From IMG/VR virus record IMGVR_UViG_3300047094_002040, positions 1 through 47,563 of that record: a stretch of 47,563 bases of DNA, one strand, 5' to 3'. Positions 9,680-29,906 of this stretch are shown here, piece after piece; the stretch's first letter is position 1, and every line of letters starts with the position of its first letter. Position numbers and translations under genes: made by a program. The DNA is from a virus. The notes under the pieces are model-generated. The model was not told the DNA's origin. It searched no databases and saw only the letters and a list, made by a program, of their open reading frames with translations.

Positions 9680-11509
9680 GTGGCCACCTCCGCTACTGAA
9701 GAGTTCCGGAACGACGGGGCACTCGTAAACATTCTCACTGGAATGGGAGTTCCTTCGAGAGATAAGACAGTTTCTACGTCTGTAGGCGCAAAGTCTTTCC
9801 TTGGAGAAGCAGAACTTGAAGCCCTCTACAGCCACGGAATCCCCCGTCGCTACGTCGACGCGATCAGCGACGAGATCCTCCGCCACCGCACCACCATCAC
9901 CATCGGCGGCGACGACGAAGCCCAATCCAACGACCTGATCACCGGGTTCGAGGAATACCTGAAGGACACCCAGTTCCACCAGGCGCTCGCCGAGGTCGTC
10001 AAACTCCAGCGTCTCTACGGCGGCGCTGGCCTCGTCCTGCTCATCGATGACGGCCTCGATCCAGCTGAGCCAGTCGACCCCAACCGCATCCGTGCCCTGC
10101 GCGGCTACGTGCCCCTGTCCCGCTGGGAGCTGATCCCCGAGGACTTCACGATCACCGACTACTCCAAGCCCTCGCACTACCGGATCACCACCAGCCAGCG
10201 CCTGACCCCCGACCAGCAGGGCAGCTACATCAATCTCCGCATCCACTCCAGCCGCATCGCCCGCTTCGACGGCCTCTACCTGCCCTGGAACGTCCGCGTC
10301 CGCAACACCGGCTGGGGTCAGTCCGTCCTGCAGCTGATCTGGGAGTCCTACAAGCGCTACGAGAGCGCCATGGCTGGCCTCGAGTCGATGACGACCGACG
10401 CCGATCTCTTCGTTCACAAGATCCCCGGCCTGTTCCAGCGCATCGCATCCGGCAACGAGAGCGATCTGCGCAAGCGCTTGGAGGCCAACAGCCTCAGCCG
10501 CAGCGTCTACGGCGGCATGGTCGTCGACACCGAAGAGGACCTGAGCTTTCTCAACCGCGCTCTGAGCAACATCGCCAGCGCCACCGACCCCTTCATCAAG
10601 GACCTCCAAGCCGCCACCGGCTGGCCCGCCTCGATCCTGATGGGCGATAGCCCCGGCGGCCTGGGCAAAGAAGGCCGTTTCGAGGAGCGCATCTGGGCCG
10701 CCCTGGTCGAGCAGTGGCAGGAGGTCTACTGCCGCACCGCGATTACCGAGGTCTTCGACTACATCTTCCAATCCAAGGAGGGGCCAACCCGCGGCCGCGC
10801 CCCGCGCTCCTGGTCCGTCCACTTCCCGAGCGTGTTTACGGAGACGGAATCCGAGGCCGCCGCCCTGCGTCTGCAGATGGCCCAGGTCGACGCGCAGTAC
10901 ATCAACCTCGGCGTGCTCAACCCCCTGGAAGTGCGCGAAGCCCGCTTCGGCGGCACCGAATACAGCATCGAAACGACGCTCAACCCGGCAGTCACCGAGC
11001 AACTGCTCGCGACGACGGACGCCCAGTTCCAAAGCCAGATGCTGGGCTACGAGGCGCAACAGCAGGCCGCTCTCGCCCCCGCTGCTGAACCTCCTGAGAC
11101 CGAGGACCCCGAAGAGCCCGAGGACGAATCCCCGCAGCCGAGCGCGGACACCAAGTCCGATGCCTTCGACCGCTACGAAGCCCAGGGCTTACGTATCCAA
11201 GTCACGCACCGCAGCGGCGACATCCGCGCCGGTTACCTCGTCGGTCCCGACGGCCAGCGCACCGACGCCAGCAGCGCAGCCCCGCTGATGATCTTCGGAC
11301 CCAATCGCACCCGGGCCTACAAGCTCTACCGCGCCCGTTTCGCTTGCGATGGCGCCCTTAACGACGGCCCCTACGCCACTGGGTTCGCTTCGATGCGCGC
11401 CGCCCGCAGCGCGGTGTCCGCTTTCTTCCCTCGGCAGACTGTGGCGGGGCTCTCCCCAGTTCCCGAGGGCGAACTCGAAGCCCTTCGTGCCGGTTGGGAG
11501 GCGTACTGA
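9680..11509 (+). CDS. Portal protein, DUF1073 family, 609 aa
   Basis: It forms the dodecameric portal ring at the capsid vertex. The body matches the DUF1073 portal type: GGAGLVLLIDDG near residue 114, LIPEDFTITDYSKP, the helix-forming GWGQSVLQLIWESYKRYE, then TGWPASILMGDSPGGLG and an FTETESEAAALRLQMAQVD stretch. A C-terminal extension of about 120 residues follows an acidic Pro/Glu linker (about 475-500) and ends in FASMRAARSAVSAFFP; I do not recognise it. The start is GTG 9680. The first 45 codons are AT-richer than the rest. The end overlaps the next ATG by one base. Confidence 0.9.
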   Translation: MATSATEEFRNDGALVNILTGMGVPSRDKTVSTSVGAKSFLGEAELEALYSHGIPRRYVDAISDEILRHRTTITIGGDDEAQSNDLITGFEEYLKDTQFHQALAEVVKLQRLYGGAGLVLLIDDGLDPAEPVDPNRIRALRGYVPLSRWELIPEDFTITDYSKPSHYRITTSQRLTPDQQGSYINLRIHSSRIARFDGLYLPWNVRVRNTGWGQSVLQLIWESYKRYESAMAGLESMTTDADLFVHKIPGLFQRIASGNESDLRKRLEANSLSRSVYGGMVVDTEEDLSFLNRALSNIASATDPFIKDLQAATGWPASILMGDSPGGLGKEGRFEERIWAALVEQWQEVYCRTAITEVFDYIFQSKEGPTRGRAPRSWSVHFPSVFTETESEAAALRLQMAQVDAQYINLGVLNPLEVREARFGGTEYSIETTLNPAVTEQLLATTDAQFQSQMLGYEAQQQAALAPAAEPPETEDPEEPEDESPQPSADTKSDAFDRYEAQGLRIQVTHRSGDIRAGYLVGPDGQRTDASSAAPLMIFGPNRTRAYKLYRARFACDGALNDGPYATGFASMRAARSAVSAFFPRQTVAGLSPVPEGELEALRAGWEAY

Positions 11510-13452
11510 TGGACAGCCAAGAGCAAGCCACCATCCGCACCGCGACCTACCTGGCCGCGCAGCAGCGCACTGACCTGCGAGGCCCCCGCGCCACCCGCAC
11601 CGGCAAGACCCGCGGCGTCGACTGCAACCCGCCCAACGTCAAATGCGGGGGGCGCTGCATCCCCCCGAACTGGGACTGCCGCCTGAAGGGCCAAGGCACC
11701 AACTCAGAGCTCCAAGCCCACCGCACCGATCCGCTGGCCGGCATCGCCTCGATCCAACGCGGTGCCAAGGACCTCGCCCGCGGGGTCGTCACCCTCAACC
11801 CTTCCCGTGTCCAGCGAGGGCGCAACTCCCTGATCCGGGGCGCCGTCAAGCTGACGCCCGGCGACAACCTGGAGCAGAAGAAACAGCTCAAGCGCCAGCT
11901 CACCGCTGCCAGCACGCCCGTGATGGCCGTGCTCGGGGTGACGTTGGTGGGCCTCGGCGCCCACGCCGGCCTGAAACGCGGCTTCCCCAGCTACCGCAAC
12001 GGCGTCGGCGCCCAGCTCGATAGCGCAGCCACCCGCGCCGTGGATTCCGTTCTCGACCGGGTCCCTGGCATCTCCGCAGTCCGTGCCTCCCGCCGCGCCG
12101 CTGCTGCGGGCACCACTGCCGAGATCGCAACGGCGGTCACCCGCGGCTCCCGTATCCAAGCAACGCAGACCGCTGCAGCCGGCAACCTCGGGCGGATCGG
12201 CCCGCTGAGCTTCCGCCCCAACGCCGCCGACTACGAAGCCAGCAACCTGCGCGCCAGCTTGGACACGCTGCAAGGCCGCGCCCGCTCCGGTGGCCTCAGC
12301 TACGACACCTGGAAGCAAGAAGCTGTCCAAGCCCTCTACGGCGCCAAGAGCCCCGGCACCCGTGCCGGCAGCCAGCGAGGCAGCATCTTCTCCGAGCACG
12401 CTGCCAACGAATTCCTGGTCTCGCAGTTCGGCCTGCGCGGCACCGGAGCTGTTGGCAGCCAGGGCCAGTTCTCCACCGCTGCGCGCAACGCTCTGGTGGA
12501 CACGCAGCTGGCCGAGCGCCTCTCCGGCTGGGGCGAGACCCTGCGCCAGGACATGCGCCTGCGTCGCTTCGTCGGCCCTGACGGTGGCATCCGCACCGAG
12601 GACGTCAACCGCTACATCCGCGAGGTCGGCGACAGCACGCTGAGCTCCCGCTTTGCTGGTCTCTCCGCCGGGCAGCGCAACCAAGCCCGCGTCGAAGCCC
12701 ACCGCCTGATGCGCTCGGCCATCAACGGCAACAACATGACCAGTGAGGCCCGCAGCCTGCGCCGCTCGCTGGTGTCCCAGTTCGACACCTACTTCGAGGG
12801 CGTCGCCCAAGGCATGCGCCGCAACGCCGCCGCCTCGGATTCACCCTTCGGCGATGGCATGACCGGTCTGGCCCGCTACGTCGGCCGCACCACCAACCAG
12901 CCGACGCAGATCCTGAGCCGTGACCACGCCGATCTGCTGCTGCGCAACCACTACCACACCCGTGTGATGCGCCTGAACAACGACTTCACCATCGGCGAGG
13001 GCACCGCCCGCCGCGTAGCGCAACAGATCAGCCGCAGCACCGAGCTGCCCGATGCAGATTCCGCATACCGCATCCTCAACGAGAACGGCTTCCCCCGCCT
13101 CAGCCGCCGCGCCCCCGCCACCGGCCGCGCTCCAGAGCGCCTGCGCAACCTGAGCGAGCTGACCCGTGACATCCTGGGCCGACCCGGTAACGAAGGCATG
13201 TCCCGCGCCGCCGCCCAACGCGAGGCCCGCCGCCTGATCGAGCGCCGTGGGCAGCGGGGCGGAACTCCCCGGTCAAATGCACCGCTTGTGGAGCAGATCG
13301 AGAATGAAACACAAGAGCAGTTCGCACAACGAGTTCGGCCACTCGGAGAAGAGCAAATAAAGCGGAACTTCTCGCGGGGTGACGCCTCCCCCGAGCCCGG
13401 CACCATCCGCACCGCGACCTATCTCGCCGCCCGAGCCCGTGGAGCTGATTGA
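11509..13452 (+). CDS. Large virion-type protein with N-terminal Cys motif, 647 aa
   Basis: No known enzyme is recognised. Residues 38-58 contain a four-Cys motif (CNPPNVKCGGRCIPPNWDC, 19 residues). A basic region and one clearly hydrophobic helix (VMAVLGVTLVGLGAHAGL, about 138-155) follow, and the remainder is long, Ala/Arg-rich and helical. The segment TIRTATYLAA occurs both near the N-terminus (8-17) and at the extreme C-terminus, encoded by a 29-base near-identical repeat. Placement between portal and the gp7-like minor head protein suggests an internal or ejected virion protein. ATG 11509 overlaps the portal stop. Membrane insertion is an inference. Confidence 0.6.
   Translation: MDSQEQATIRTATYLAAQQRTDLRGPRATRTGKTRGVDCNPPNVKCGGRCIPPNWDCRLKGQGTNSELQAHRTDPLAGIASIQRGAKDLARGVVTLNPSRVQRGRNSLIRGAVKLTPGDNLEQKKQLKRQLTAASTPVMAVLGVTLVGLGAHAGLKRGFPSYRNGVGAQLDSAATRAVDSVLDRVPGISAVRASRRAAAAGTTAEIATAVTRGSRIQATQTAAAGNLGRIGPLSFRPNAADYEASNLRASLDTLQGRARSGGLSYDTWKQEAVQALYGAKSPGTRAGSQRGSIFSEHAANEFLVSQFGLRGTGAVGSQGQFSTAARNALVDTQLAERLSGWGETLRQDMRLRRFVGPDGGIRTEDVNRYIREVGDSTLSSRFAGLSAGQRNQARVEAHRLMRSAINGNNMTSEARSLRRSLVSQFDTYFEGVAQGMRRNAAASDSPFGDGMTGLARYVGRTTNQPTQILSRDHADLLLRNHYHTRVMRLNNDFTIGEGTARRVAQQISRSTELPDADSAYRILNENGFPRLSRRAPATGRAPERLRNLSELTRDILGRPGNEGMSRAAAQREARRLIERRGQRGGTPRSNAPLVEQIENETQEQFAQRVRPLGEEQIKRNFSRGDASPEPGTIRTATYLAARARGAD
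11530..11558 (+). repeat. Direct repeat copy 1 (encodes TIRTATYLAA), partner at 13402-13430
   Basis: The 29 bases here match 13402-13430 at 27 positions; the two differences are silent third-position changes. The copies lie at the two ends of the same gene. The silent differences suggest that the peptide is what is conserved rather than a fresh DNA duplication. Confidence 0.7.
13402..13430 (+). repeat. Direct repeat copy 2 (encodes TIRTATYLAA), partner at 11530-11558
   Basis: This copy encodes the last residues of the 11509-13452 product, before the ending RARGAD. It lies within the upstream-open part of the next gene's frame. That is one reason to think the next gene starts after it rather than at GTG 13379. 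Confidence 0.7.
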
Positions 13453-14311
13453 GCGCTACAACCAGCTCCTCCGCACCACCGAGGACGGCACGCTGCGGCT
13501 GCTGAACCGCGTCCTCGATCAATCTTTCAACCGCCTGGTGCGCCGCTCTCGCATCTTGATGAGCGCCGGCTATGCAGATCCTGCATCGCGCAACCTCGCC
13601 TTGCTCCAAGAGTTCCGGCAACTGATCCCCGCGTACCGCCCGGACCGCGTCGACGCCTACGACCGCGTGCTTCGCACCCTGCTTGGAGAAGCCAGCACCC
13701 GTGGCATCGAGGTCGCTGACGAGCTCACCGGCCAGATGGCCCCTGAGCGCCCGCGCCTCGATGTCTCCATCCCGCTGCAGGCCACGGTGGCCGCCGCTGC
13801 TCAAGCCAAGGGCTACCTGCGCAAACACGGTGAGCGCTTCGCCGAAACCTCAGCCGAGGTCGTCGCCTCCGGCATCGCCGAGGGCCGCGCCACCGACGCC
13901 ATCGTCCAGGACATGCGCCTGCGCCTGGGCGTGGTCAAGTCCCGCGCCGACGTCATCGTCCGCACCGAAGCCCTGCGCGCCTACAACGACGCCTCGAACA
14001 CGTACTACGCCGCGCAGGGCATCGATCTGGTGCTCTACTACGCCACCGCAGACGACCGCGCCTGCCCGATCTGCGCACCGAGGGCGGGCAACATCTACCG
14101 CCGCCCGGACATCAGGGTCCCCCTGCACCCGCGCTGCCGCTGTTACCTGGCCCCCTGGGATGCGGACCTAGCCGCCATGGACAAGGACTACGCCGCCAGC
14201 CGAGGCCGGCACGCCCGCGAAGTCCAACAAGCCCTCCAGCGCTCCCGCATCGAAGGCATCGACCTCAACAAGGCCGCTGTCTTCGAGCAGATCGCGCCGG
14301 TCCCGCTCTAA
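13439..14311 (+). CDS. Minor head protein, SPP1 gp7 / Mu F-like, 290 aa
   Basis: The C-terminal half shows the family signature: VIVRTEALRAYNDAS, then YYATADDRACPICAPRAG (CxxC) and VPLHPRCRCYLAPW with its His and Cys pair. These proteins bind the portal, are present in few copies and affect head assembly and DNA ejection. The N-terminal half is helical. GTG 13439 is preferred; a GTG at 13379 would add 20 mostly Pro/Ser residues translated from the end of the previous gene. The overlap with that gene is 14 bases. Confidence 0.85.
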   Translation: MELIERYNQLLRTTEDGTLRLLNRVLDQSFNRLVRRSRILMSAGYADPASRNLALLQEFRQLIPAYRPDRVDAYDRVLRTLLGEASTRGIEVADELTGQMAPERPRLDVSIPLQATVAAAAQAKGYLRKHGERFAETSAEVVASGIAEGRATDAIVQDMRLRLGVVKSRADVIVRTEALRAYNDASNTYYAAQGIDLVLYYATADDRACPICAPRAGNIYRRPDIRVPLHPRCRCYLAPWDADLAAMDKDYAASRGRHAREVQQALQRSRIEGIDLNKAAVFEQIAPVPL

Positions 14312-14363: not shown

Positions 14364-15386
14364 ATGCCCGCCACCAAGAAGTCCGCCGCTTACGAGAAGG
14401 GTCTGCGCGAAGGCCGCGCCGACAAGAACAAGCCCTCCATCGAGATCGAAATCAACCCCGAGGGCGAGGAAGAAGAGGAGATGGGCACCGAAGAAATGGA
14501 TGCGATCAAACCCCACTCCCGCAAGCGCAGCTCCAAGAACGCCAAACACACCACCCCGGCAGCTGACGGCTACGGCCTGAAGCAGCCCATGGACGCCGAG
14601 TGCGGCTGCGAAGGCAAAGGCCGCAAGGGCAAAGCCTCCTGCGACGGCAACTGCGGTGGCTACGCCAAGAAGATGGACGCCCTGAGCCCCCAGGAGTACT
14701 TGGCCGCCTGCGACCTGGGCATCCAGCACCGCTCCCGCGCCTACATCCGCGCTCGGTTGGACGCCGCGGAGCGCCTGGACCTCAAGTGCGGAGCTGGCTC
14801 GATCTCCGAGGGCGAAAAATGCACCAAGGGGGCTGCACAGAAAGCATCAAATAACAAGCCATCATTTGGTCAGCGCGCAAAAGCTGCAGGTAGTCTTCTT
14901 GCATTAGGCGCGGGCGTGACCGGCCAAGCTGCTTTTACCGGTGCTGCTATTGGCGCGGGACTCGCTGGTAACACCCAGGCTGCAGGTCGGTTTACCCAAG
15001 CAGCCGCAGGCTTTGGTGCTATTAAAGGGCTCGGACTGGCTGGGCTGGGAGCCAAGTCTGCCGCCCGGAAAGAGTTGGCAGGAGCGGCTCTCGGTGTTGC
15101 AACCGGCAGCTACTTGGCGGGGGATCTAAAAAAGGGAGCAAACGCAGTCGGACGCGCGCGCAAAGAGGGCGCAGCTATGACCTTCAAGCGCCTGCGTTAT
15201 GCCCGCGCCAATGCTCAAGGTACTCAGCGAATTGCTGCGTTGCGCAATGCACAACTGCCGCAGGCTGAAACTATGTACGGGCGGATTACAAATCCTTGGG
15301 CACCAAGTGTGCAGCGTCCCAAAAGCCGCCGCGACTCCGTCTACGCCGCCGGCTTCTCCCCCGAGCTCGATCAACTGGCGATCTAA
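14364..15386 (+). CDS. Cys-motif / hydrophobic-helix virion-type protein, 340 aa
   Basis: The N-terminus is charged (an EEEEE run near residue 37) with a Cys-rich cluster (ECGCEGKG, then SCDGNCGG, about 80-98). A helix (SPQEYLAACDLGIQHRSRAY) leads to the Cys motif KCGAGSISEGEKCTKG (about 140-155), shared with neighbouring genes. After it lies a long Ala/Gly-rich hydrophobic stretch (about 170-255) that could form several membrane-active helices. From about 14830 to 15300 the codons are markedly AT-richer than on either side. A structural or ejection protein is inferred from position. Confidence 0.6.
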   Translation: MPATKKSAAYEKGLREGRADKNKPSIEIEINPEGEEEEEMGTEEMDAIKPHSRKRSSKNAKHTTPAADGYGLKQPMDAECGCEGKGRKGKASCDGNCGGYAKKMDALSPQEYLAACDLGIQHRSRAYIRARLDAAERLDLKCGAGSISEGEKCTKGAAQKASNNKPSFGQRAKAAGSLLALGAGVTGQAAFTGAAIGAGLAGNTQAAGRFTQAAAGFGAIKGLGLAGLGAKSAARKELAGAALGVATGSYLAGDLKKGANAVGRARKEGAAMTFKRLRYARANAQGTQRIAALRNAQLPQAETMYGRITNPWAPSVQRPKSRRDSVYAAGFSPELDQLAI

Positions 15387-15389
15387 GCC

Positions 15390-16262
15390 ATGGCCCTGAC
15401 CCCAGCCACCGTCCGCCTCGACGCCTGCTGGAAGGGCTATGTCCAGGTCGGGATGAAGCGCAAGGGCAAACGTGAAGTGCCCAACTGCGTTCCTGCCTCC
15501 TCCGGCGTGGCCAAGCCTCGCGCTCAGAAGGACACCGAGGACGACAAGAAGTACACGAAAGTCGTCACCAACCCCGAGACCGGCCGCAAAAACCGCATCC
15601 GCTACGGCGCCAAGGGCTACCGCATCGCCCCCGGCACCGACAAAGGCGACCGCTACTGCGCCCGCTCCTTCGGTGACATGAAATCCGAGGGCTACGACTG
15701 CTCCGGCGCCGAGAAGAACACCCCGCTCTGCCTGTCCCGGGCCAAGTGGAAGTGCTCCGGCAAGACCAGCCGCCGCGATGCCGATGGCATGGCCTGCGGC
15801 CAGGGCCACATCGCCCGGGGCAAGAAATGCCACAAGCGTGGCGCCTTCCCCACCGGCAAAGCCATCGCCGCGGGCCTGACCGCCGGTGCGGTCGCCGCTT
15901 TGACGCTGAAGGGCAGCCGCAAGGCGATCCTCGGCAGCCCTGCAGCACTGCGCCGCACTGCGCAGCGCGCTGTCACCACGGCCGTCCACCAAGCCACCGC
16001 CCCCGATCCCTCAATGCGCCTGACCCCGAGGGCGTTCAACGAGGCCAAGCGTGCGCTGAAACGCTCTGGTGTCCAAGGTGGGCTGCGCCGCCACAACCTG
16101 GCCCTCGAAGCCCTGCGCCGCCGCACCGAGCCCGGCTACCGCAAACCCCGCTTCCCCGAGCGCAAAGACGGCGCCGTACCGCAGTTCATCCCGTCGGCCC
16201 ACATCGACCCTGCCCGTCAGCGCCGTGACGCTGCGCTCACGCCGGGAAAGTCGCCCGCCTAG
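15390..16262 (+). CDS. Cys-rich virion-type protein; upstream partner of a predicted -1 frameshift, 290 aa
   Basis: The N-terminal half resembles a cyanophage domain (DUF6321-like by memory): YTKVVTNPETGRKNRIRYG, then DKGDRYCARSFGDM, GYDCSGAEKNTPLCLSRAK and WKCSGK. A Cys motif ACGQGHIARGKKCHKRG (about residues 131-147) follows, then a hydrophobic helix (AIAAGLTAGAVAALTL). The C-terminal part is basic. The frame ends at TAG 16260, 12 bases after a G_GGA_AAG slippery heptamer at 16244-16250. A -1 shift there would continue into the kinase-like frame for a 730-residue product. Confidence 0.65.
   Translation: MALTPATVRLDACWKGYVQVGMKRKGKREVPNCVPASSGVAKPRAQKDTEDDKKYTKVVTNPETGRKNRIRYGAKGYRIAPGTDKGDRYCARSFGDMKSEGYDCSGAEKNTPLCLSRAKWKCSGKTSRRDADGMACGQGHIARGKKCHKRGAFPTGKAIAAGLTAGAVAALTLKGSRKAILGSPAALRRTAQRAVTTAVHQATAPDPSMRLTPRAFNEAKRALKRSGVQGGLRRHNLALEALRRRTEPGYRKPRFPERKDGAVPQFIPSAHIDPARQRRDAALTPGKSPA
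16244..16250 (+). promoter_or_regulatory. Predicted -1 ribosomal frameshift site GGGAAAG
   Basis: In the 15390 frame the codons are CCG GGA AAG, so the heptamer is correctly phased X_XXY_YYZ and can re-pair as GGG AAA. GGGAAAG is the heptamer used in the lambda G/T frameshift, and it recurs in phase in this phage's own tail chaperone gene (24742-24748). The 0-frame stop is 10 bases on. The -1 frame is then open for 443 codons and contains no ATG, GTG or TTG before 16442. Confidence 0.7.
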
Positions 16263-17581
16263 CGCGCACCGACGCCCCCGAGGGCGCCTCGGGTAAGCCC
16301 TGCGGCGCTTCGCACATCCCCAAGTCCCACAAGTGCAGCAAATCCGCTGCAGTCCGGGGTGGATCCGCCCTGCGCACCGCTGCCAAGATTGCCCTCGCCG
16401 CCGGTGCCATCGCAGGAGGGGCCGCCATCGCCAAGAAATTCATGTCCATGGAGGAGTGGCGCCGCCACCCCGACAACCCCCGCAACACCCCAAAGATCTC
16501 TCCCGAGGAGAACCAGCGCCTCCTCGATGAGGCCCTGGCCACGGGCCAGAAATGGGACGTCCAGGAGCGCATCAACGCCCGCCGCCTAGCCGACCTCAAC
16601 GCCGAGTGCGGAGGTGGCCTGGGAAAGATCCAAGCCCCGGCGAAATTTGACGCGGCGATCCCCAATCCGCGTTGCCAAGCCGGGGCCGGTGCATTCGGCA
16701 CCTACTTTGTCCACACCTCCGAGAAGCACGGCTTCAAGGTCTTCCGCAACGAAGACGAAGACGCCGATCCAGGCTGGGAGTTTGACCGCCTGGGCAAGGC
16801 GCACGCCGCTGGTGTCAACGTCCCCGAGCCCCTGGCCATCAACTACACCAAGGACGGCACCCACACCCTCACCCTTCGCCACATGAAGGGCTACCGCGAG
16901 ATCGCCGACGTCTACGGCGGGTCCGGCGACCTGAGCAGAGCCCCGCTGATCATCCGTCTCAAGCTCGCCCGTGAATTCCGCAAGCTCCACACCGAAGGAA
17001 TCGCCCACGGCGACATCCACGGCGGCAACTTCATGGTCAACGAGAAGTCCAAGCGCGTCGCCCTCGTGGACTTCGGCTTCTCCACCCAGATTGATGACGC
17101 GCCGCACCGCATCCACAACAAGGACGGCGTAGAAAACTTGATGGCCGACCTCGTGCGGCTACCCGAGTACTTCGGTCTGCGCTCCTTCACCCGGGACTAC
17201 CAAGGCGTCCTGTCGAACATCTCAACCCAAGCCAAGGACTACAACCGCTCCTGGGACAACTACGAGCTCGCCATCAAGCGCTACTACGACGTGCTCGAAG
17301 CTGAACTGCTCGATGCGGACCGCCGCCCCCGTTCTCGCTTCGTCAGTGGCGCCGACCAACCGCGCATCCCTGGCATCACACGCGCCGTGCTCACCGCCAA
17401 CGCCAACACCTTCCAACGGGGCGTGATGGAGCAAGTCGCCCAACAGCAACCGAGCCTGTTTAAGCAGGGCGCCAAGAACCTCGGCCTCAAGCCCGCGCAG
17501 CTGCATCGCGCCCTGGCCCCCGAGCGCGCCGCCCGCAAAGCCGCCCTGCGCCAGCGCCCCTTCGGAACACCGCTGGGCTGA
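16250..17581 (+). CDS. Protein-kinase-like domain protein reached by -1 frameshift, 443 aa in the -1 frame
   Basis: The -1 frame starts with a Cys motif (PCGASHIPKSHKCSKS, 16308-16355) and a hydrophobic helix, then the first ATG (16442). A kinase-like fold follows: Gly-rich loop GAGAFG (about 16684-16701), a Lys in FKVFRN (about 16736), the catalytic loop HGDIHGGN (17006-17029) and VDFGFS (17066-17083). HGDxHxxN is closest to ABC1/RIO/aminoglycoside-type kinases. Because the shared Cys motif lies upstream of every usable start, synthesis as a fusion with the 15390 product is more likely than initiation at 16442. Its location implies a low-copy virion protein possibly ejected into the host; substrate unknown. 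Confidence 0.65.
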   Translation, partial: VARLARTDAPEGASGKPCGASHIPKSHKCSKSAAVRGGSALRTAAKIALAAGAIAGGAAIAKKFMSMEEWRRHPDNPRNTPKISPEENQRLLDEALATGQKWDVQERINARRLADLNAECGGGLGKIQAPAKFDAAIPNPRCQAGAGAFGTYFVHTSEKHGFKVFRNEDEDADPGWEFDRLGKAHAAGVNVPEPLAINYTKDGTHTLTLRHMKGYREIADVYGGSGDLSRAPLIIRLKLAREFRKLHTEGIAHGDIHGGNFMVNEKSKRVALVDFGFSTQIDDAPHRIHNKDGVENLMADLVRLPEYFGLRSFTRDYQGVLSNISTQAKDYNRSWDNYELAIKRYYDVLEAELLDADRRPRSRFVSGADQPRIPGITRAVLTANANTFQRGVMEQVAQQQPSLFKQGAKNLGLKPAQLHRALAPERAARKAALRQRPFGTPLG

Positions 17582-18069: not shown

Positions 18070-19368
18070 ATGGAAACATCTGTTTCTCGCTACGACTTCG
18101 CTCCCATTACAGGTAGCGAAACCACCGAGGAGGGTTACCTCCGCGTGTGGTGTCGAGCAGCGCGCACGGGCACTCAGCTCTACCGCCGAGCAGATGGATC
18201 CCAAGTCCGCGAATACCGTCCTCCCGAAGAGGTCAGCAATCCGGACTCCCTATCCACGTTCGGGATGAAACCCGCAACGTGGGGTCACCCACCTGTTCTT
18301 CTCGATTCCGCCAACACCAAGCAGTACCAAGTCGGCTACTCCGGTAGCCAAGTTCGGTACAACGACGGTTTTGTCGAGGTCGCCCTGGTCATCACGGACC
18401 AAGACGCCATCGAAAAGATCAAGCGCAAGGACGCCACCGAGGTGTCCGCCGGCTACAAGGTCGATTTCGACCCCACCCCCGGGCACAGCCCCGAGGGCGA
18501 GGAGTACGCCGGTGTGCAGCGCAACATCCGGGTGAACCACATCGCCATCGTGCCCCGAGGCCGGGCTGGCCCCGAGGTACGCCTGCTCATGGATCGCATG
18601 GACGCGGCTGACGCCATCTCCTTCGATCCTGACTTGATCCGTGAAAACGGATCGGCGCTCCAGCCCTGTCCACCTGCATCTCCCGTTATGGCAACCGTCA
18701 AGCTCGACGGCCTGGAGATCGATCTGCCCGCTGACTCAGCTAGCGCGGTCCAGTCCTTCGCACGGGACATGGAGCGCCAACTCAAAGCTGTTGCCACCGA
18801 GCGCGACGAGCTGACTTCCAAGCTCGACTCGCTGCAGTCAGATTTCGATTCCCTCGCCTACGAGAAAGAGGCCGCTGAAGGTCGTGCTGATGCCCTCGAA
18901 GAGCGCATCACCGAACTCGAGGCTGGGTCCTCCCGAATCGACACCGCTGAGCTGGACAAGCTCGTCGCGGCTCGCCTCTCCACCCTGCAAAAGCTGGCCC
19001 CCGCCTTTGCCGAGGACTTCAAGTTCGACGGCATCGACGACCAAGCTCTCTACCTCCAAGCCTTCGAGAACCTGACCGGTTCCGCCGCCCGCGAAGACGC
19101 CCAGCCCGCCTACATCCAAGGCGTGGTTGACGGCATCCTCGCTGCTCGTTCCGACGAAGAAGGCGACGAAGCTGAAGGTGAAGAAGCTGAGGAAAGCGAA
19201 GAAGCCCCCGAGGCCGAGGCCAAAGAGGATTCCGCCGACCGCGCCGACAGCACCGCCACTCTGCGCGATGCCCTCAAGGGCGCCGGCCGTGGCACCGCCT
19301 CCCCGGTAGACACCTACCGCTCGCGGATGGCGGATGCCTGGAAGCGTCCCCTCACCGCCACCAAGTAA
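18070..19368 (+). CDS. Prohead protease (DUF2213) fused to scaffold, 432 aa
   Basis: Residues 1-180 match the DUF2213 protease type: HPPVLLDSANTKQYQVGYSG, VALVITDQDAIEKIK, TEVSAGYKVDF and NHIAIVPRGRAGPEVRL. The second half is scaffold-like: a coiled coil (about 245-290, ERQLKAVATERDELTSKLDS), a long Glu/Ala acidic run (about 360-390) and a basic C-terminal helix that would bind capsid protein. An internal ATG at 18687 opens the scaffold part and could give a separate scaffold product, as with lambda C/Nu3. The neighbours downstream are decoration and capsid genes, as expected. Confidence 0.85.
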   Translation: METSVSRYDFAPITGSETTEEGYLRVWCRAARTGTQLYRRADGSQVREYRPPEEVSNPDSLSTFGMKPATWGHPPVLLDSANTKQYQVGYSGSQVRYNDGFVEVALVITDQDAIEKIKRKDATEVSAGYKVDFDPTPGHSPEGEEYAGVQRNIRVNHIAIVPRGRAGPEVRLLMDRMDAADAISFDPDLIRENGSALQPCPPASPVMATVKLDGLEIDLPADSASAVQSFARDMERQLKAVATERDELTSKLDSLQSDFDSLAYEKEAAEGRADALEERITELEAGSSRIDTAELDKLVAARLSTLQKLAPAFAEDFKFDGIDDQALYLQAFENLTGSAAREDAQPAYIQGVVDGILAARSDEEGDEAEGEEAEESEEAPEAEAKEDSADRADSTATLRDALKGAGRGTASPVDTYRSRMADAWKRPLTATK

Positions 19369-19380
19369 GGAGCTCCTTCC

Positions 19381-19995
19381 ATGGCCGTTACTTTCACCGC
19401 CACCACTGTCGCGAACCCCTCCGGGGCTCAAGGCAGCTATCCCCTCTCCCTGGTCAAGGGTCACGAGGGCATGCTCGCTGATCTGCAGGCTTACGTCTGC
19501 CGCAGCTACCGCAACCAATCCGGCGCCGCCCTCCCCTACGGCGTGCTGGTTGCCACCGACAACACCCCCTCCACCAACGACCCCCTGGCCGTTGAGATCG
19601 CGACCGGCACCACCCTGATCCAGGGCATGGCCGTGAGCTCTCAAGTGCTCGAGGGCGCCAGCCTCGGCTCCAGCTACACCCCGGTTCCCACCCCGGTGTA
19701 CAGCGACGGCCGTTACGGCTACCCCGACAAAGAGACCGTCAACGTGGTCTCCAAAGGTGTGGTGTGGGTGTACTCCACCGCCGCCATCGCCCTGGGCGAT
19801 GCCGTGCGTTTCTTCAAAGCTGACCACAGCGGCACCGTCGCCGGCGCCTTCCTGGGTCGCTTCACCAAAACCGCCGTTGCCACCAAGACCGTCGAGATCA
19901 CCGCAGGTGCTCGCTGGCTGTCTGAAACCTCGGCTGCCGGCCTGGTCCTGCTGGAGATTGACATCCCCGGCATGACCTACTCCGCCGACGCTTGA
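19381..19995 (+). CDS. Head decoration / capsid cement-like protein, 204 aa
   Basis: A beta-rich protein in the standard place between scaffold and major capsid protein. It contains YRNQSGAALPYGVLVATDN and WVYSTAAIALGDAVRF, features of the structural cement proteins (gp24-like) that sit beside DUF2184 capsids. AAGGAG stands 9 bases before the ATG, one of the few clear Shine-Dalgarno sites in the window, fitting high expression. The exact family is assigned from memory and position. Confidence 0.7.
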   Translation: MAVTFTATTVANPSGAQGSYPLSLVKGHEGMLADLQAYVCRSYRNQSGAALPYGVLVATDNTPSTNDPLAVEIATGTTLIQGMAVSSQVLEGASLGSSYTPVPTPVYSDGRYGYPDKETVNVVSKGVVWVYSTAAIALGDAVRFFKADHSGTVAGAFLGRFTKTAVATKTVEITAGARWLSETSAAGLVLLEIDIPGMTYSADA

Positions 19996-20012
19996 TCACG
20001 GAGCTTCCTGCC

Positions 20013-20930
20013 ATGACCACTGAAATCCGTAACGACGAGGTCGGCGTTTTCCTCGCCCGCGAGCTGGAAACGATCCTGGCTCGCACCTTCGAGGTCGAGT
20101 ACGCCGACATCAAGTACAGCCAGCTGATCCCCCTCTCCTCCGAGGTCGGGAACGGCGCTGACTCCTTCACCTATCGCGTCTTCGACAAGCAAGGCTCGAT
20201 GAAGGTGATTGGTGACAAAGCCCAAGACCTGCCCCGCGCTGACGTGCTCCGCAAGGAAGTCACCCTGCCGGTCCGCAGCATCGGCGGCTCCTTCGCCTAC
20301 ACCATCCAGGAAACCCGTGCCGCCGCCATGGTGCCCGGCATGAACCTGGAGCAGCGCCGGGCTAACGCCGTGCGCCGCGCCTACGAGGAGAAGGTGCAAG
20401 AGATCGCCTACTTCGGCGACTCTGCCTCCGGCATGAAGGGCTTCTTCAACAACGATCAGGTCGACAAGACCGTGCCGAACAAATGGTTCGACACGGCTGG
20501 CGTGACCACCGACGAAATGCTGGAGCTCCTGAACGAAGCGCCCACCCGCCTCGTGCAGAACTCCAACATGAAGGAGATGCCCAACACGATGCTGGTGCCC
20601 TACAACGTGTACCGCATCATCTCCACCACCGCCCGTTCGAGCACCTCGGACACCACGGTGATGGAGTTCTTCCTGCGCACCAACCCGATGATCAGCTCCA
20701 TCGAGCCGATCAACGAGCTGGAAGCCAGCAAGTCCGGCGGCGCCCTGTCCAAGGACCGCGTGGTGGTGTACGACCGCAGCCCCGACAAGCTGCAGCTGCA
20801 CATCCCCCAGCCCCTGGAGTTCCTGCCCCCGCTCCGCCAAGCCCTCGAGTTCAGCGTGGCCGCCCACGCCCGAATCGGTGGCCTCGCGCTCTACTACCCC
20901 AAGAGCGCCATGGTGCTGGAAAAGGCGTAA
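20013..20930 (+). CDS. Major capsid protein, DUF2184 family, 305 aa
   Basis: HK97-fold shell protein. Motifs of the DUF2184 group are visible: RELETILARTFEVEYADIKY, then FTYRVFDKQGSMKVIG, DLPRADVLRKEVTLPVRSIG, the helical AYEEKVQEIAYFGDSASGMKG and SKDRVVVYDRSPDKLQLHIP, ending FLPPLRQALEFSVAAHARIG. GGAG precedes the ATG at 20013. The longer frame from 19992 is not needed. A hairpin follows the stop. Confidence 0.92.
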   Translation: MTTEIRNDEVGVFLARELETILARTFEVEYADIKYSQLIPLSSEVGNGADSFTYRVFDKQGSMKVIGDKAQDLPRADVLRKEVTLPVRSIGGSFAYTIQETRAAAMVPGMNLEQRRANAVRRAYEEKVQEIAYFGDSASGMKGFFNNDQVDKTVPNKWFDTAGVTTDEMLELLNEAPTRLVQNSNMKEMPNTMLVPYNVYRIISTTARSSTSDTTVMEFFLRTNPMISSIEPINELEASKSGGALSKDRVVVYDRSPDKLQLHIPQPLEFLPPLRQALEFSVAAHARIGGLALYYPKSAMVLEKA

Positions 20931-24027: not shown

Positions 24028-24261
24028 ATGGAACACGACCTACTCATCGACGGCTTGTACACCGTGTACGCCGTGAACTGCCGAGAGGAAGGCTCCACGC
24101 TCCACTGTGGAGCCCTCTACCTCGAACCCCTGATCCAATCCCAGTGTATACGCCTAGCGTATGAGGCCGCTACTATTGAGGTTGAACTTCCGCCCGAGCT
24201 GTTAAACCAACCAAGCCCACAACGGGCCTGGGAGGTTGAGCTCCCCATCCGAGATGAGTAA
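24028..24261 (+). CDS. Small hypothetical protein, 77 aa
   Basis: ATG 24028 lies 9 bases after the terminator T-run. The product is acidic with three Cys (VNCREEGSTLHCGALYLEP and SQCIRLAYEA). Two perfect inverted repeats occur inside the gene. Its 3' end overlaps the G-like chaperone start by 8 bases. No family is recognised. A promoter for the downstream tail genes may lie inside it (TACTAT at 24170-24175). Confidence 0.5.
   Translation: MEHDLLIDGLYTVYAVNCREEGSTLHCGALYLEPLIQSQCIRLAYEAATIEVELPPELLNQPSPQRAWEVELPIRDE
24091..24162 (+). repeat. Two perfect inverted repeats inside the 24028 gene
   Basis: GGCTCCAC (24091-24098) pairs with GTGGAGCC (24107-24114). ATACGC (24148-24153) pairs with GCGTAT (24157-24162) across 3 bases. 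Both are perfect. They follow a terminator and precede the tail operon, so an operator or regulatory role is possible. Confidence 0.45.
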
Positions 24262-24793
24262 GTACGCGAGCCTCCTCTTCGCCCCTGAGAAGTACCACGA
24301 GATCGGCCCGTTCCGCTTCCCCATCTACAACGACCTCGTCCCCGGCGAATCCCGCGGCATTGAGGCCATCTCCCGCAAACAATCCCGCTCCACCTTCGCC
24401 TCCATCAAGCTCGCCCAACGCATCGCGAAGGACAAGGGCATTTCCACCAAAGACGCTGTCGAACTGCTGAGCAACACCACAGAAGAGAACCAGGATCTGC
24501 TCTACGACTACGCCGGCGAACTCGAAGAGCTGCAGCGCAACAGTGTCGGCGCTGTCGAACAACAGGTGGCCTTCGTCACCCTGTTCATGCAGTACCGCGC
24601 CGAAGTGAAACTGCCCAAATCCAAGGACTGGGAGCGGGTCGAGGACTGGAGCGAGGCCGACACCGAAGCCATGCCCACCAAGCTGATGGAGGACGTCTTC
24701 CGCCTGATCAGCTGGGAGCGCGACGGCTGGCCTGAAACCACGGGAAAGGCCGAGGACGAGCAAGTCTTCAACCCACCCCCGAAGAACTCCTAA
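24254..24793 (+). CDS. Tail assembly chaperone, lambda G-like, 179 aa
   Basis: It precedes the tape-measure gene and carries a correctly phased GGGAAAG at 24742-24748 near its 3' end, as lambda G does. The product is helical and acidic toward the C-terminus (FVTLFMQYRAEVKLPKSKDW, LMEDVFRLISWERDGW). It should coat the tape measure during tail assembly. ATG 24254 is preferred over one at 24236. The 0-frame product ends at TAA 24791-24793. Confidence 0.85.
   Translation: MSKYASLLFAPEKYHEIGPFRFPIYNDLVPGESRGIEAISRKQSRSTFASIKLAQRIAKDKGISTKDAVELLSNTTEENQDLLYDYAGELEELQRNSVGAVEQQVAFVTLFMQYRAEVKLPKSKDWERVEDWSEADTEAMPTKLMEDVFRLISWERDGWPETTGKAEDEQVFNPPPKNS
24742..24748 (+). promoter_or_regulatory. -1 ribosomal frameshift site GGGAAAG (G/GT)
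   Basis: The codons ACG GGA AAG give a phased X_XXY_YYZ heptamer identical to the lambda G/T slippery site. The -1 frame is open from here to 25224. The arrangement (chaperone, frameshift, then tape measure) is conserved among long-tailed phages. Confidence 0.85.
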
Positions 24794-25224
24794 AAAGCTG
24801 CGAGGACTACCTCCGTAGCCCCGAGACCGACTGGGACGTGATCTATGTCCGCATCCGAACCTCCGCGCTCGGGGCTGACTTCCCAGCGGACCGCTTTCTG
24901 CGTACCCCCATCAGCACACTGCGCTGGCTGCTGCGCGTCATCGACGACCGCGAAAAAGGCCAAGCAAATCTCGAGGCCGTCCCTGTTGCTCGCCTAACCC
25001 AGATCCTCATCCAGATCGCCCATGGGTTCTCCGGCTCAAAACGTGCAGCACCCAAGGTCAGCGCCAAAGACTTCCTGCCCTACCCCGATTGGCGCCCGGC
25101 TTCAAGCCAAGCTGATGGCCCCAGCAACCCAACCAAGTTCATCCTCGCCTCACTCGGACGCAAGCGACTTCTGCCGCCCCACGTCCTCGCTGCGCTGATG
25201 ACCCCAGTCGAGCGGCGGCCGTAG
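24748..25224 (+). CDS. Tail chaperone frameshift extension, lambda T-like, 158 aa in the -1 frame
   Basis: Read only after a -1 shift at 24742-24748, this yields a GT fusion of about 323 residues. The new part has PEELLKSCEDYLRSPETDWD, FLRTPISTLRWLLRVIDDRE, ARLTQILIQIAHGF and LPYPDWRP. The last part (LPYPDW..) is common in T-like proteins, followed by SLGRKRLLPPHVLAAL. Independent initiation at GTG 24838 is possible but would remove the first 30 residues, which are protein-like. It lies 26 bases before the tape measure. Confidence 0.8.
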   Translation, partial: GRGRASLQPTPEELLKSCEDYLRSPETDWDVIYVRIRTSALGADFPADRFLRTPISTLRWLLRVIDDREKGQANLEAVPVARLTQILIQIAHGFSGSKRAAPKVSAKDFLPYPDWRPASSQADGPSNPTKFILASLGRKRLLPPHVLAALMTPVERRP

Positions 25225-25250: not shown

Positions 25251-28200
25251 GTGGCTGATTTTCGGCTCAACGTCACTGCCGATACGCAGCGAGCTGAACG
25301 CGATCTGCGCCAGCTGAATCAGACGGCCGACAGCGCGACCAGGGCCCGTCAGCTAAAAATCGACCTCCCATCGATTAGAGACGTCAACAAGACGTTCTCA
25401 AACCTGGGGAGGGACGTAAACGATGCGGCAAACAATATCAAGACCTTCTACAAAGTCGCAAAGCAGCTGCCCGGCCTGGGTGACAGCATTAAAAGGTATG
25501 AAGGCGCCATAACAGGAACAGCCAAAGCAGCGACAACCCTCGCCAACAACACAAAAGCTGGTGACATTTTAGCTAACAGTTTTAACAAAGCCAGCAGCTC
25601 TGTAGGTGGCTTAGTAAATGGCTTAGCCAAAGTTGGCTTTGCCTTGTTCGGAATCAAAGAGATACTTGGTGTCTTGCAGAACGCTTTTGGCGGATTTTTC
25701 CAGCAGACGATCGGCCGCGAGATCAAGCTCCGCGAGACGATTCTCAAGACCCAGACCACCCTCGCCTCCACCAACAAGGTCTTCCGTAACGGGAAAGAGA
25801 TCACTGACCCCTACGAGAAGATCGTCAGCCTGACCGGCGAGGTCCAAAAGCGCATCGACAGCATCCGAGAGCGCTCCATCGCCCTGGCCGGCGTCACCTC
25901 CAACGAGGTCATCGAAGTCTTCGGCATCGTCGCCTCGCAAGTCGGTCAGATCGGCGGCGGCCTTAAGGAAGCCGAAGACCTGGCGATCAACTTCTCCGCC
26001 GCCCTCGGGACCTTCGGCATCCCCCTGTACCAGGCACGCCAAGAAATCGGTTCGATCCTCCGTGGTGACATCACCATGGATTCGTACCTGGCCAAGGCAC
26101 TCGGAATCACCAACGAGGACGTGGCCCGAGCCAAAACACAAGCTGGCGGCGTCATCAAGTTTCTCGAGGACCGGCTAGCTGCTTCCGTCGCCGGTCAACG
26201 GATTGCGGCGCAGGGCTTTTCAGGCGTCGTCTCCAACATCCGCGATCTCGGTGAGCTGGTGGCCCAACGGTTCGGCGCCGGGCTGTTGGATCCGCTACTG
26301 AACGCTCTGGCCGGGGTTTTTGAGAGGTTGTTCAGGATCAGAGAGCAGCTGTTCTCCCTTGCCGACGCTGCTGGTCAATTCATTGGCAGGTTTGCAGCAA
26401 TCGGCCAGGTGATCCGAGAGCGCAGCGGGTTGATCTCATTGGGAGAGATCGGTTTAAAGGACAACTCAGGTAGCAAGGCCATAAATGATCTGAAGGACGC
26501 TATCCAAGACGTCGTCGTCCTGATCGAATCTGGAATGCAGCGCGCCATTGGCGCTGTAGCTCAAATCATTACCACGTTGCAGCCTGCGGTACTGACCGTT
26601 GCAGATGCCTTTGTCCGACTGGGCAAATCATTCATAGAAATCAAGGTTGATGTATTTGAAACGCTGGCGCGCGCCTTGGCAAACGTCATCAGCTTCTACA
26701 GCAAATTCATCGAACTACTCGCTACAGGCTTTAATCTTTACAGTCAACTTCTTGACTTACCCATAGTTCAGGAGTTTACGAAGCTAGCTGCCACCATGGG
26801 CCTGCTCAAAAGGGCAGGCATGGATTTCATTACCAATGCCCTAATCATTGGCAACACGCTAGTAAGAGTTGTAGTTCCGGCACTCGGCGGAGTAGGAGTA
26901 GCAATCGCAACGCTGCTTGGTGGCATCGCTGTCCTAATAGCCGCGGTGGGCAAACTTGCGATCGTGTTTGGGACACTTGCGGCATCGCTAGTCACACTGC
27001 CCACGATGGCAGCAGGTGTCGCCAAAGCCCTGCAAGAAGTCTCCAATAATCTGATCAAAGCAGGCAATGACGCGGTCAGCACCGGCGGCCGAATTGAAAC
27101 TGTTGCAGGAGGATTCAAAAATCTCGGTGAAACTGTGCGCTTGACCGCAATGAACATGGTCAAGTCGGTAGGGATGATATTCCTGGTACAAGCAGCAATA
27201 ACGGTGCTTGTAAATGCCTTCGGCGAATACCAAAAGAGAGCCGAGGAAACCGCTAAAACGAACCGCGCCGAGCTCGCTTTAGAACGACTTGGAACCGTAT
27301 ATAGAAACGTCGGGGACGACGCAGACTACGCCACCAAGGCCGCTCGGGACTTTGAACGGCAGCTAGCCCAGGCCGAGTACGGCCGGGCCACCGAACGCAT
27401 TGAAGAAATCAGGAAGAAGCTGAATGATCTGCGCTACGAAGGCCAACTCGGCATCCAGACCTGGAGCGAATTTTGGAGACTCTTTGATGTACGCGACACA
27501 GTCACCAGGGCATTAGGCGGCAATGCCGAGCAGCAGCGAGTAGGTGCGCTGATTGGAGAGCAAGCTCGTTTGCGCGAGTACCAAAGAAAGTACGAAGCCG
27601 CACAAAATAAAAAAGACGCACAAGAAAACATAAGATTACAAGCCGATAAAAGAATTTCGCTGGAGAAAGAAATCAATGATATACGCATTCAACAAGAAAA
27701 CGAGCTCTTCCAAAAACGTCAAGAACTAGCCCAAAAAGAAGTCGAGATCTTCCGTGCCGCCGGCGAACTGCGCATCTACCAGATGGAGCAGGCCAACAAG
27801 AAGCTCATCGAGGGCGAGGAAGGCGCTTCGCGCTCCGCGCTCGAGGCGCTAAACAACTACCTATCGACTCGCGAGCGCGGGGAACTCGACATCGAAGCTG
27901 GCAAAAAGCAGCTGGTGATTGAGGCTGCCAACCTCGAACGCCAGATCTCCGACTACCGCCTCGAGAACGAGAAAAAGATCGCTGAGATCCGCAAGCGCGC
28001 GGGCGACTACGAACAAAAGGTGTCGGACTACCGCCGGCAACTGGCCGGCCAGACCCCGGTCGGCGGCGTCACCGGCCTTACCCAGGGCAACACCGGCACC
28101 AGCAGCCGAGGAGATCACTTCCACATCGCTGGCGCCGGCAGCGAAGCCGAAGCCCGCGCCATTTTCGCCGCGAATATCAACAGACAGCTTCAACTCACCG

Positions 28201-29906
28201 ATGTCCCCGGGTCCGCGCGCTCTGGTGGCCGCCGCCATGCCGGCTACGACCTAGCCGGACCGGTCGGAACTCCCCTCAACCTGGCACCGGGCTACACCCT
28301 CCAGAACTTCACCCGCGATCCCAAGGGCCTTGGCGGCAACTACGCCACCATCGCCGGCCCCCGAGGCCAGAGCTACAAAATCATGCACCTGGCCGACCCT
28401 GGTTCGGGGTACAAAGGGCCTGGTAGCACCTCAGTCGCGCCCACTGCACCGACATTCTCTGACATCGGGGCTCCTGCAACTGAGAAATATGCATCCGCAG
28501 TTCGCGCACTGACCTCGGCCATGGAGCGCCTTCGTGTGCTTCAAGCCGCACTGACGGAGGCGAGGACTGCCGCCGCCTTCAACGAGATCGCCAAGGCGAT
28601 GTTCCCGAAGGTGGACATCGAGCAGTACCAAGACAAGCTGGATGAAACACGCTTCGCGCTCACCGAGCTCGGCAAAGCATCCGCCTCAAGCTTCGATCCA
28701 GATCGTGTCGCCCTCACTGCCGAGTACAACGGCGAGCTAAATAGCCGAGCCCGTGAACTGGCCCAACTCCTGGAAACTGCGACCAAGCAGCTGAAACCAG
28801 ACGAGTTCTACAAGCTATGGACTCAGCTCAAGGCATCCAACGACAAGTTCAAACAAGACCTCGCCGCCCAAAACAAGCTCAAAGAGGACCAGCTGCGCCT
28901 GGACAGAGCGCGCAACGCACTGCAGGAATCCCTCAACAGGACCCGCAGCCTCCAGGAATCCACAGCCGACTCCCAGCTCCGGACACGCCTGCGGCTCGAA
29001 GGCATGAGCCCAGAGCTCATCGACGCTGAAGTCCAAAAAGAACAGGCTCGACGCGCACTGGCTGAATCCCTTCAGAACCCAGACACCCGCGCTGGTGCTC
29101 AAGCCACACTTGATGCTCAGTCCGCCGCCATCGACGCAGACGCGCTGGCCAAGCTCGCCGAGAACGATCCCCTTACAGGGCTCCTCGGCAAATGGAAGTC
29201 GGAGCTCAAGGACACCCGCAGCATGGTCGCGAGCCTGGCTCAGACCTTCCAAACGGAAGTGTCCGGAGCTATGAGCACCGCCGTCACCGGCGTGATCAAC
29301 GGCACGACAACCGTCCAAGAGGCTTTTGCCAATCTGTTCCAGAACGTCGCCAAAGCCTTCCTCGACATGGCGATGCAGATCATCGCCAAGCAGATCACGA
29401 TGTTGATCCTGGGAATCTTGCTCAAGGCATTCGGTGTGTCGATGGGTGGTGGCGGTGGTGCCGGTCCAGGCGGCATACCCTCAACCGGTGATGCCGCACT
29501 ACCGAGCATCGACGGGTTCGACACGGGGATGAACGCGAATCTGGCCGGGAACGGAGCGTTCTTCTCCAATGGCATCGCTTCGTTCAAGCGGGGTGGCACC
29601 TTTACCAACAGCGTGATCAGCACCCCCACGCTGTTTAAGTACGCCGATGGCGGCGTCATGGGCCTAGGTCAAATGGGCGAGGCCGGTCCTGAAGCGATCC
29701 TCCCGTTGACCAGGGGACCCGGTGGAAAGTTGGGAGTCAGCACTTATGGCAACTCTGGAGACGTCAATGTCGTCGTAAACGTCGATGCCACCGGATCTAA
29801 AGTAGAAGGCGACGACCAAAAAGCCAACGAGCTCGGTCGCGTTGTCTCCGCTGCTGTCCAACAGGAAATCATCAAGCAGAAACGTCCTGGAGGCTTACTT
29901 GCGTAA
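25251..29906 (+). CDS. Tail tape measure protein with permuted M23-like peptidase motifs, 1551 aa
   Basis: Its length sets the tail length. The start is GTG 25251. The N-terminal 300 residues are helical; a hydrophobic region (about 530-590, e.g. GIAVLIAAVGKLAIVFG) follows, and a coiled coil (about 770-930) comes after. Zinc-peptidase-like motifs appear in permuted order: GNTGTSSRGDHFHI (H956, H958), then RRHAGYDLAGPVGTP (H996, D1000), then IMHLAD (H1046). The C-terminus has the usual GQMGEAGPEAILPLTRG. It would help the tail cross the peptidoglycan. Several AT-richer blocks (about 25330-25680, 26300-27330, 27590-27720) suggest mosaic origin. Confidence 0.9.
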   Translation: MADFRLNVTADTQRAERDLRQLNQTADSATRARQLKIDLPSIRDVNKTFSNLGRDVNDAANNIKTFYKVAKQLPGLGDSIKRYEGAITGTAKAATTLANNTKAGDILANSFNKASSSVGGLVNGLAKVGFALFGIKEILGVLQNAFGGFFQQTIGREIKLRETILKTQTTLASTNKVFRNGKEITDPYEKIVSLTGEVQKRIDSIRERSIALAGVTSNEVIEVFGIVASQVGQIGGGLKEAEDLAINFSAALGTFGIPLYQARQEIGSILRGDITMDSYLAKALGITNEDVARAKTQAGGVIKFLEDRLAASVAGQRIAAQGFSGVVSNIRDLGELVAQRFGAGLLDPLLNALAGVFERLFRIREQLFSLADAAGQFIGRFAAIGQVIRERSGLISLGEIGLKDNSGSKAINDLKDAIQDVVVLIESGMQRAIGAVAQIITTLQPAVLTVADAFVRLGKSFIEIKVDVFETLARALANVISFYSKFIELLATGFNLYSQLLDLPIVQEFTKLAATMGLLKRAGMDFITNALIIGNTLVRVVVPALGGVGVAIATLLGGIAVLIAAVGKLAIVFGTLAASLVTLPTMAAGVAKALQEVSNNLIKAGNDAVSTGGRIETVAGGFKNLGETVRLTAMNMVKSVGMIFLVQAAITVLVNAFGEYQKRAEETAKTNRAELALERLGTVYRNVGDDADYATKAARDFERQLAQAEYGRATERIEEIRKKLNDLRYEGQLGIQTWSEFWRLFDVRDTVTRALGGNAEQQRVGALIGEQARLREYQRKYEAAQNKKDAQENIRLQADKRISLEKEINDIRIQQENELFQKRQELAQKEVEIFRAAGELRIYQMEQANKKLIEGEEGASRSALEALNNYLSTRERGELDIEAGKKQLVIEAANLERQISDYRLENEKKIAEIRKRAGDYEQKVSDYRRQLAGQTPVGGVTGLTQGNTGTSSRGDHFHIAGAGSEAEARAIFAANINRQLQLTDVPGSARSGGRRHAGYDLAGPVGTPLNLAPGYTLQNFTRDPKGLGGNYATIAGPRGQSYKIMHLADPGSGYKGPGSTSVAPTAPTFSDIGAPATEKYASAVRALTSAMERLRVLQAALTEARTAAAFNEIAKAMFPKVDIEQYQDKLDETRFALTELGKASASSFDPDRVALTAEYNGELNSRARELAQLLETATKQLKPDEFYKLWTQLKASNDKFKQDLAAQNKLKEDQLRLDRARNALQESLNRTRSLQESTADSQLRTRLRLEGMSPELIDAEVQKEQARRALAESLQNPDTRAGAQATLDAQSAAIDADALAKLAENDPLTGLLGKWKSELKDTRSMVASLAQTFQTEVSGAMSTAVTGVINGTTTVQEAFANLFQNVAKAFLDMAMQIIAKQITMLILGILLKAFGVSMGGGGGAGPGGIPSTGDAALPSIDGFDTGMNANLAGNGAFFSNGIASFKRGGTFTNSVISTPTLFKYADGGVMGLGQMGEAGPEAILPLTRGPGGKLGVSTYGNSGDVNVVVNVDATGSKVEGDDQKANELGRVVSAAVQQEIIKQKRPGGLLA

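Follow-up and report, generated by a model that had tools for sequence, protein, structure and literature searches.

Programmed -1 ribosomal frameshifting very probably takes place at positions 16244–16250 of the virus record IMGVR_UViG_3300047094_002040, the whole 47,563-bp stretch of which was analyzed here (henceforth the window), on the slippery heptamer G_GGA_AAG near the end of a gene designated gene A (15390–16262). As judged from the sequence, a 290-residue carrier protein would thereby be extended into a 730-residue fusion that bears a Cys/His motif and a protein-kinase-like enzyme, and the same arrangement of heptamer, -1 frame and Cys/His motif (the cassette) recurs in related viral sequences, which were compared with the window and are referred to by L-numbers (L002, L015 and so forth). 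The reading taken as a whole, i.e., a frameshift cassette with an enzymatic payload, produced as a minority fusion and delivered from the capsid into the host, is given a probability of approximately 0.65. The frameshift component is argued from the fixed 57-nucleotide (nt) spacing, the phase and the nearby 0-frame stop in 27 distinct cassettes, and from frame-specific selection, an association recovered by homology only, Cys modules that lack start codons, and naturally occurring one-frame alleles.

Gene A is an ATG-started open frame and lies on the plus strand, as do all features of this locus; its product ends in LTPGKSPA, and its last codons read ACG CCG GGA AAG TCG CCC GCC TAG. As the initial annotation had noticed, the heptamer sits close to this stop and in a phase that fits tandem -1 slippage, the TAG (16260–16262) following nine bases after the heptamer and five codons past the start of the slippery Gly codon. 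The -1 open reading frame (ORF; 16229–17581), to be entered by frameshift at the heptamer, is open for 450 codons (16229–17578), of which the part from GK to the end specifies 445 residues, and the earlier claim that it is long and lacks ATG, GTG or TTG before 16442 was confirmed, as was the 730-residue length computed for the fusion. An open frame of 450 codons did not appear in any of 4,000 simulations with matched dinucleotide composition. GGGAAAG as such occurs in the window at chance frequency (6 observed versus 6.2 expected); an in-phase copy no more than 8 codons before a stop and followed by a long -1 continuation was encountered in one of the 162 plus-strand frames of at least 80 codons, namely gene A. 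Stop-codon readthrough was ruled out as it would continue in the wrong frame, and transcriptional slippage because there is no long homopolymer.

Upstream of the slip site, the gene A product contains a conserved carrier domain (residues 50–130; 15537–15779), which tblastn detected in S-TIM5, CRP-212 and Vibrio phages, which stands alone in other phages and which precedes the cassette in most relatives; this domain is followed by a first Cys/His motif, CGQGHIARGKKCHK (15795–15836). The -1 frame continues with a linker holding an R-x-D-A motif (RTDA, 16265–16276), whose D and A show no variation in the module alignment and whose R is almost invariant, and then with a second Cys/His motif, CGASHIPKSHKCSK, whose first codon lies 57 nt from the heptamer start. 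That this second motif lies upstream of any start was rightly stated in the initial annotation, although its position was misjudged (16308–16355 instead of 16301–16342). Beyond it are a hydrophobic helix (16361–16432; helix 40–63 of the predicted model, which is of low confidence there), with a similar stretch in all homologues, and a protein-kinase-like core (16679–17173) with a Gly loop, HGDIHGGN (17006–17029) and DFG (17069–17077).

Protein searches with gene A and the -1 product returned about 60 viral contigs, and in those relatives whose downstream Cys-motif protein is in the -1 frame, an in-phase GGGAAAG precedes the 0-frame stop by a short distance. Within the set defined by homology only, heptamer and -1 Cys ORF occur together on 13 distinct carrier ends, no -1 Cys ORF occurs without the heptamer, 18 carrier ends have neither feature (three of these being one-frame fusions), and one sequence (L016) has the heptamer ahead of a different -1 module of basic composition; the association is significant by Fisher's exact test (p = 4e-8, a value that ignores relatedness). 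Pattern scans of the contigs, which permitted a gap of 35–65 or 40–60 nt between heptamer and Cys codon, identified 27 distinct full cassettes with a gap that is invariably 50 nt (57 nt when counted from the first G of the heptamer), unlike chance pattern matches, whose gaps were scattered. The 0-frame stop is located 2–6 codons past the slip site in all cassette-bearing relatives and abuts the heptamer (GGGAAAG TAG) in L029/L030 and L180. Furthermore, GCCGGGAAAG is invariant across cassettes while the -1 peptides are only 45–73% identical to the reference, and the 0-frame Gly codon of the heptamer is always GGA, a rare codon that accounts for 10% of the Gly codons in this phage.

A module search seeded with the module alignment only, in which the heptamer was not used, returned 97 distinct Cys modules, 68 with an in-frame upstream start codon and 29 with GGGAAAG at -57. 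Among the latter, 27 require a -1 shift and two (L022 and L251) are one-frame fusions, while in 12 of the 29 the stretch from the preceding stop to the Cys codon is devoid of possible starts. Conservation of GGGAAAG and the lack of an intervening start, which had been suggested as a check on homologues, were thus both recovered, the heptamer being invariant in the 27 cassettes; moreover, none of the cassette-bearing homologues displays a clear start and ribosome-binding site just before the Cys motif. In two sequences, only 54 codons (L222, around 9318) and 42 codons (L234, around 4316) of open 0 frame precede the heptamer; the L234 frame specifies a shifted form of the usual domain, which implies that another frame break, or else an assembly error, lies upstream.

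The two frames are also distinguished by selection. The ratio of nonsynonymous to synonymous polymorphism (pN/pS) is 0.14 for the 0 frame of gene A and 0.20 for the -1 frame in the segment that runs from the 0-frame stop to the first start codon (window, L002, L003 and L004), and 0.15 for the kinase in the -1 frame (window, L003 and L004), with values above 1 for the remaining frames in every segment among the closest relatives of the window. The frame under purifying selection thus changes from 0 to -1 at the heptamer, before a start codon is available. When 24 diverse cassettes are compared, pN/pS for the region of linker and Cys motif is likewise 0.33 in the -1 frame, versus 1.4–1.7 in the others. 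Because purifying selection acts in the -1 frame before any start, these ratios indicate that the -1 segment is translated, though it is unreachable from any standard start codon in the window.

Several relatives encode the fusion without a frame break. GGGG replaces GGG at the site in L022, which results in a single open frame of 864 codons; the heptamer has been lost from L036 and L039, whose carrier and cassette are fused in frame; in L251, which is without the 50–130 domain, the cassette is entered in the -1 frame as a one-frame fusion; and an apparent deletion in L270 joins LTPGK straight to PCGASHIP. Since such alleles exist, the fusion is evidently tolerated and presumably functional. 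The cassette and kinase are missing from L005–L010, where the gene A homologue ends in QRPFGTPLG, the C-terminal tail of the kinase itself; this ending of the kinase-less relatives, seen for example in L006 (5998–6855), looks like the result of a deletion at a short repeat.

A stimulatory element would be expected as a structure 5–9 nt downstream of the slip site or as an upstream Shine-Dalgarno sequence. A candidate weak hairpin, CGCCC(CCGA)GGGCG (16273–16286), begins 22 nt past the heptamer, which is distant for a classical stimulator, and the full set of five pairs is possible in 18 of the 25 distinct sequences compared, without covariation. G_GGA_AAG is itself reported to be highly shift-prone in Escherichia coli (PMC5009743).

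Certain observations weigh against the reading as a whole. A strong, well-placed RNA stimulator was looked for at the site and in its relatives and was not found. The cassettes often share ancestry, so that the counts given above are not independent, and neither the cassette module nor the -1 product of the window has a match among the isolated phages of the collection; a cassette scan of GTDB genomes produced two chance matches only. Finally, L015 holds an ATG where the heptamer would be, and so at least one related -1 module can be expressed alone; this start (ATGACC, near 3970) overlaps a stop at the cassette position, and the basic module behind it is probably translated by coupling.

The enzymes placed behind the cassette are of several kinds. 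The -1 product of the window matches Pfam Kdo/APH/ABC1 families above cut-off, and its structural model (mean predicted local distance difference test score (pLDDT) of 67, the kinase core mostly at 70–94, i.e., of moderate confidence) matches protein kinases of the PDB in Foldseek searches (E ~1e-7). Since the kinase Lys, Glu, HxD...N and DFG residues are conserved in 14 aligned homologues, the payload is, by residues and predicted fold, a member of the protein-kinase-like superfamily and a predicted enzyme; a related kinase domain is present in 22 of the 27 cassettes. The payloads of L190 and L203 match the ADP-ribosyltransferase (ART) family PF03496 (28.7 and 26.6 bits, cut-off 23.4) and also PHROG 832, RNA polymerase ADP-ribosylase, and a tandem of an L203-like domain and a kinase is present in L028. 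A domain with no Pfam match is shared by L012, L191 and L174 (in its first half); the best, albeit weak, fold matches of this domain are GNAT structures in the PDB (top match probability 0.97, E 0.015; model pLDDT 62), and it is a putative acetyltransferase of GNAT-like type. The sequence of L194 ends before the payload.

Payloads may differ even where the joint does not: L199 and L203 agree in cassette and carrier end, yet the former carries a kinase and the latter an ART. Judged by such comparisons, the cassette is modular and swappable and appears to serve several enzyme classes. Upstream of the cassette, the carriers of relatives contain added kinase-like, lipase-like and DUF5872 modules, and some mosaic carriers have up to several enzyme-like modules (L028, 5164–6954; L029, 4327–6294; L232, 740–3415). 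Within L028 and L174, R-x-D-A recurs where internal modules join, and it also stands at module boundaries of mosaic proteins of the window (15390–16262), L028, L174, L191 and L232. It is tempting to regard this motif as a processing site cut by the head protease, yet this remains speculation because the capsid protein of the window lacks the motif.

We propose that most ribosomes would complete gene A at 16262 while a minority slip back one base on G_GGA_AAG into the -1 frame, yielding a product of gene A, R-x-D-A linker, Cys/His motif, hydrophobic helix and kinase-like enzyme. The fusion would accordingly be a minority product, its dose being set by frameshifting. The cassette would act as a mobile joint between varied head-region carriers and protein-modifying enzymes (kinase, ADP-ribosyltransferase or GNAT-like), and the carrier would bring a small effector dose into the capsid, from where it would reach the host as do T4 Alt and, as proposed, the polyvalent proteins. 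That the fusion is a packaged virion protein that is injected and acts on host targets is suggested by gene position and enzyme type, as has been argued for the polyvalent proteins. More tentatively, and on balance doubtfully, a mobile frameshift joint may serve to attach exchangeable enzymes to capsid-bound carriers, at a low dose that is fixed by translation, with R-x-D-A then being cut, perhaps by the head maturation protease, so that effectors are freed within the capsid prior to injection.

The alternative that survives best, and which retains an appreciable though minor likelihood, accepts the frameshift but regards the fusion as an assembly or regulatory factor resembling lambda gpGT, or as a late intracellular actor, rather than as a virion-delivered protein. 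The GGGAAAG site known in tailed phages does serve to make tail-assembly chaperones, which mature virions lack (PMC5009743), but the payloads described here resemble host-modifying enzymes rather than assembly domains, they differ among phages, and the locus is in the head module and not ahead of the tape measure. It is improbable that the kinase is instead a separate gene with an internal start at ATG 16442 or 16448 (or a non-standard start) and that the -1 frame upstream of it is untranslated. ATG 16442 does precede the kinase core, and L015 has a start codon in place of the cassette, albeit before another module; however, purifying selection (pN/pS 0.20) acts on the -1 frame ahead of 16442, no Shine-Dalgarno match accompanies either ATG, and these starts are not conserved, L185 and L199 being startless until residue 145 and the ART of L203 having its first start at residue 179, within the domain, while the Cys motif is always upstream of the start. 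Less probable still is that GGGAAAG is kept only as a recombination site for module shuffling without being slippery: modules do get shuffled, and L251 and L270 resemble recombination at GGGAAAG-containing repeats, but recombination, which may act additionally, by itself leaves unexplained the -1 phase, the 0-frame stop 2–6 codons on and the missing starts. Sequencing error, or decay of a single gene to a pseudogene, is scarcely credible despite the single frame that a one-G difference produces at the same place in L022, given that the identical break, phase and spacing occur in 27 distinct cassettes with each frame under purifying selection on its own side of the break, and the indel error contemplated in the initial annotation is excluded because the break recurs in approximately 27 distinct cassettes from many separate metagenome contigs.

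Programmed ribosomal frameshifting (PRF) in tailed phages is known mostly for tail chaperones, with a few capsid proteins in addition, while T4 Alt, a virion-borne ADP-ribosyltransferase, is encoded by a single-frame gene. The ART payloads of L190 and L203 recall T4 Alt, but ART is here one of several payloads behind a frameshift. With the lambda gpG/gpGT system the present locus shares G_GGA_AAG, tandem -1 slippage and a short plus an extended product, and differs in being a head-module gene with an unrelated carrier, which is extended by an exchangeable enzyme and not by a domain that binds the tail. The window also possesses a lambda-type chaperone frameshift of its own, apart from the gene A locus: the initial annotation's in-phase heptamer in the tail-chaperone pair (24206–25224) was located at 24742–24748, with the -1 frame extending to 25224. 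The frameshifted capsid proteins, exemplified by the major head protein of Lactobacillus phage A2 as cited in PMC5009743, likewise involve a head-region gene with a -1 extended form; there the extension is structural, in contrast to the kinase, ART or GNAT-like extensions here and to a cassette that moves from gene to gene. Polyvalent proteins (Iyer et al. 2017, PMC5512222), for which packaging and injection have been proposed, are mosaic multidomain proteins near head genes with ARTs, kinases and GNATs, but are single-frame, and frameshifting is not mentioned in PMC5512222. Similarly, MuF polymorphic toxins (PMC5576092) and the MuF-VIP2 ART fusions of Microbacterium phages (PMC7302621) combine a head-region carrier with variable C-terminal enzymes, including ART, whereas carrier A is not MuF, the MuF of the window being encoded separately (13379–14311); PRFect (PMC10885494) merely raises the possibility of PRF in MuF/VIP2 pairs.

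In agreement with the initial annotation, to which frameshifting in a head-module effector was not known, no description of PRF feeding an effector was found in the open-access literature searched, the polyvalent and MuF-toxin papers being silent on frameshifting. Heptamer frameshifting, capsid-gene frameshifts and capsid-delivered effectors are each known, and within that literature their combination appears to be new. The conserved site appears to control how much of the host-modifying enzymes is made and to serve as their exchange joint, offering a simple route by which a large enzyme may be added to a head-region protein without fusing every copy. Such effectors are predicted to be split or missed by standard annotation because they lack a start codon, and the fixed 57-nt spacing should make further cases easy to find.

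The gene order of the window is siphovirus-like, with the portal at 9680–11509, a DUF2213 head protease at 18070–19368, the capsid at 19992–20930 and, directly after the tail chaperones, a long ORF in tape-measure position (25251–29906). The frameshift locus is thus placed between MuF and the head protease, among the head genes, and domain searches of gene A returned no MuF or Pfam match. Among isolates, Synechococcus phage S-CBS4 has the most similar capsid protein (56%), and the top terminase matches among those listed come from cyanophages; the host is therefore probably a picocyanobacterium, as it probably is for the group of uncultured phages that carry the cassette. S-CBS4 has different genes between portal and protease and is uninformative for this locus. 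The 50–130 carrier domain forms a small stand-alone protein in Roseobacter phage CRP-212 (L320, 2998–3243), a few genes from the terminase small subunit, and lies near structural genes in cyanophage S-TIM5, neighbours that are consistent with, though not proof of, a packaging-related role. The MuF gene of the window is itself flanked by two more Cys-motif proteins without database matches (11494–13452 and 14364–15386), whose motifs are CNPPNVKCGGRCIPPNWDC, and KCGAGSISEGEKC with RARLDA ahead of it.
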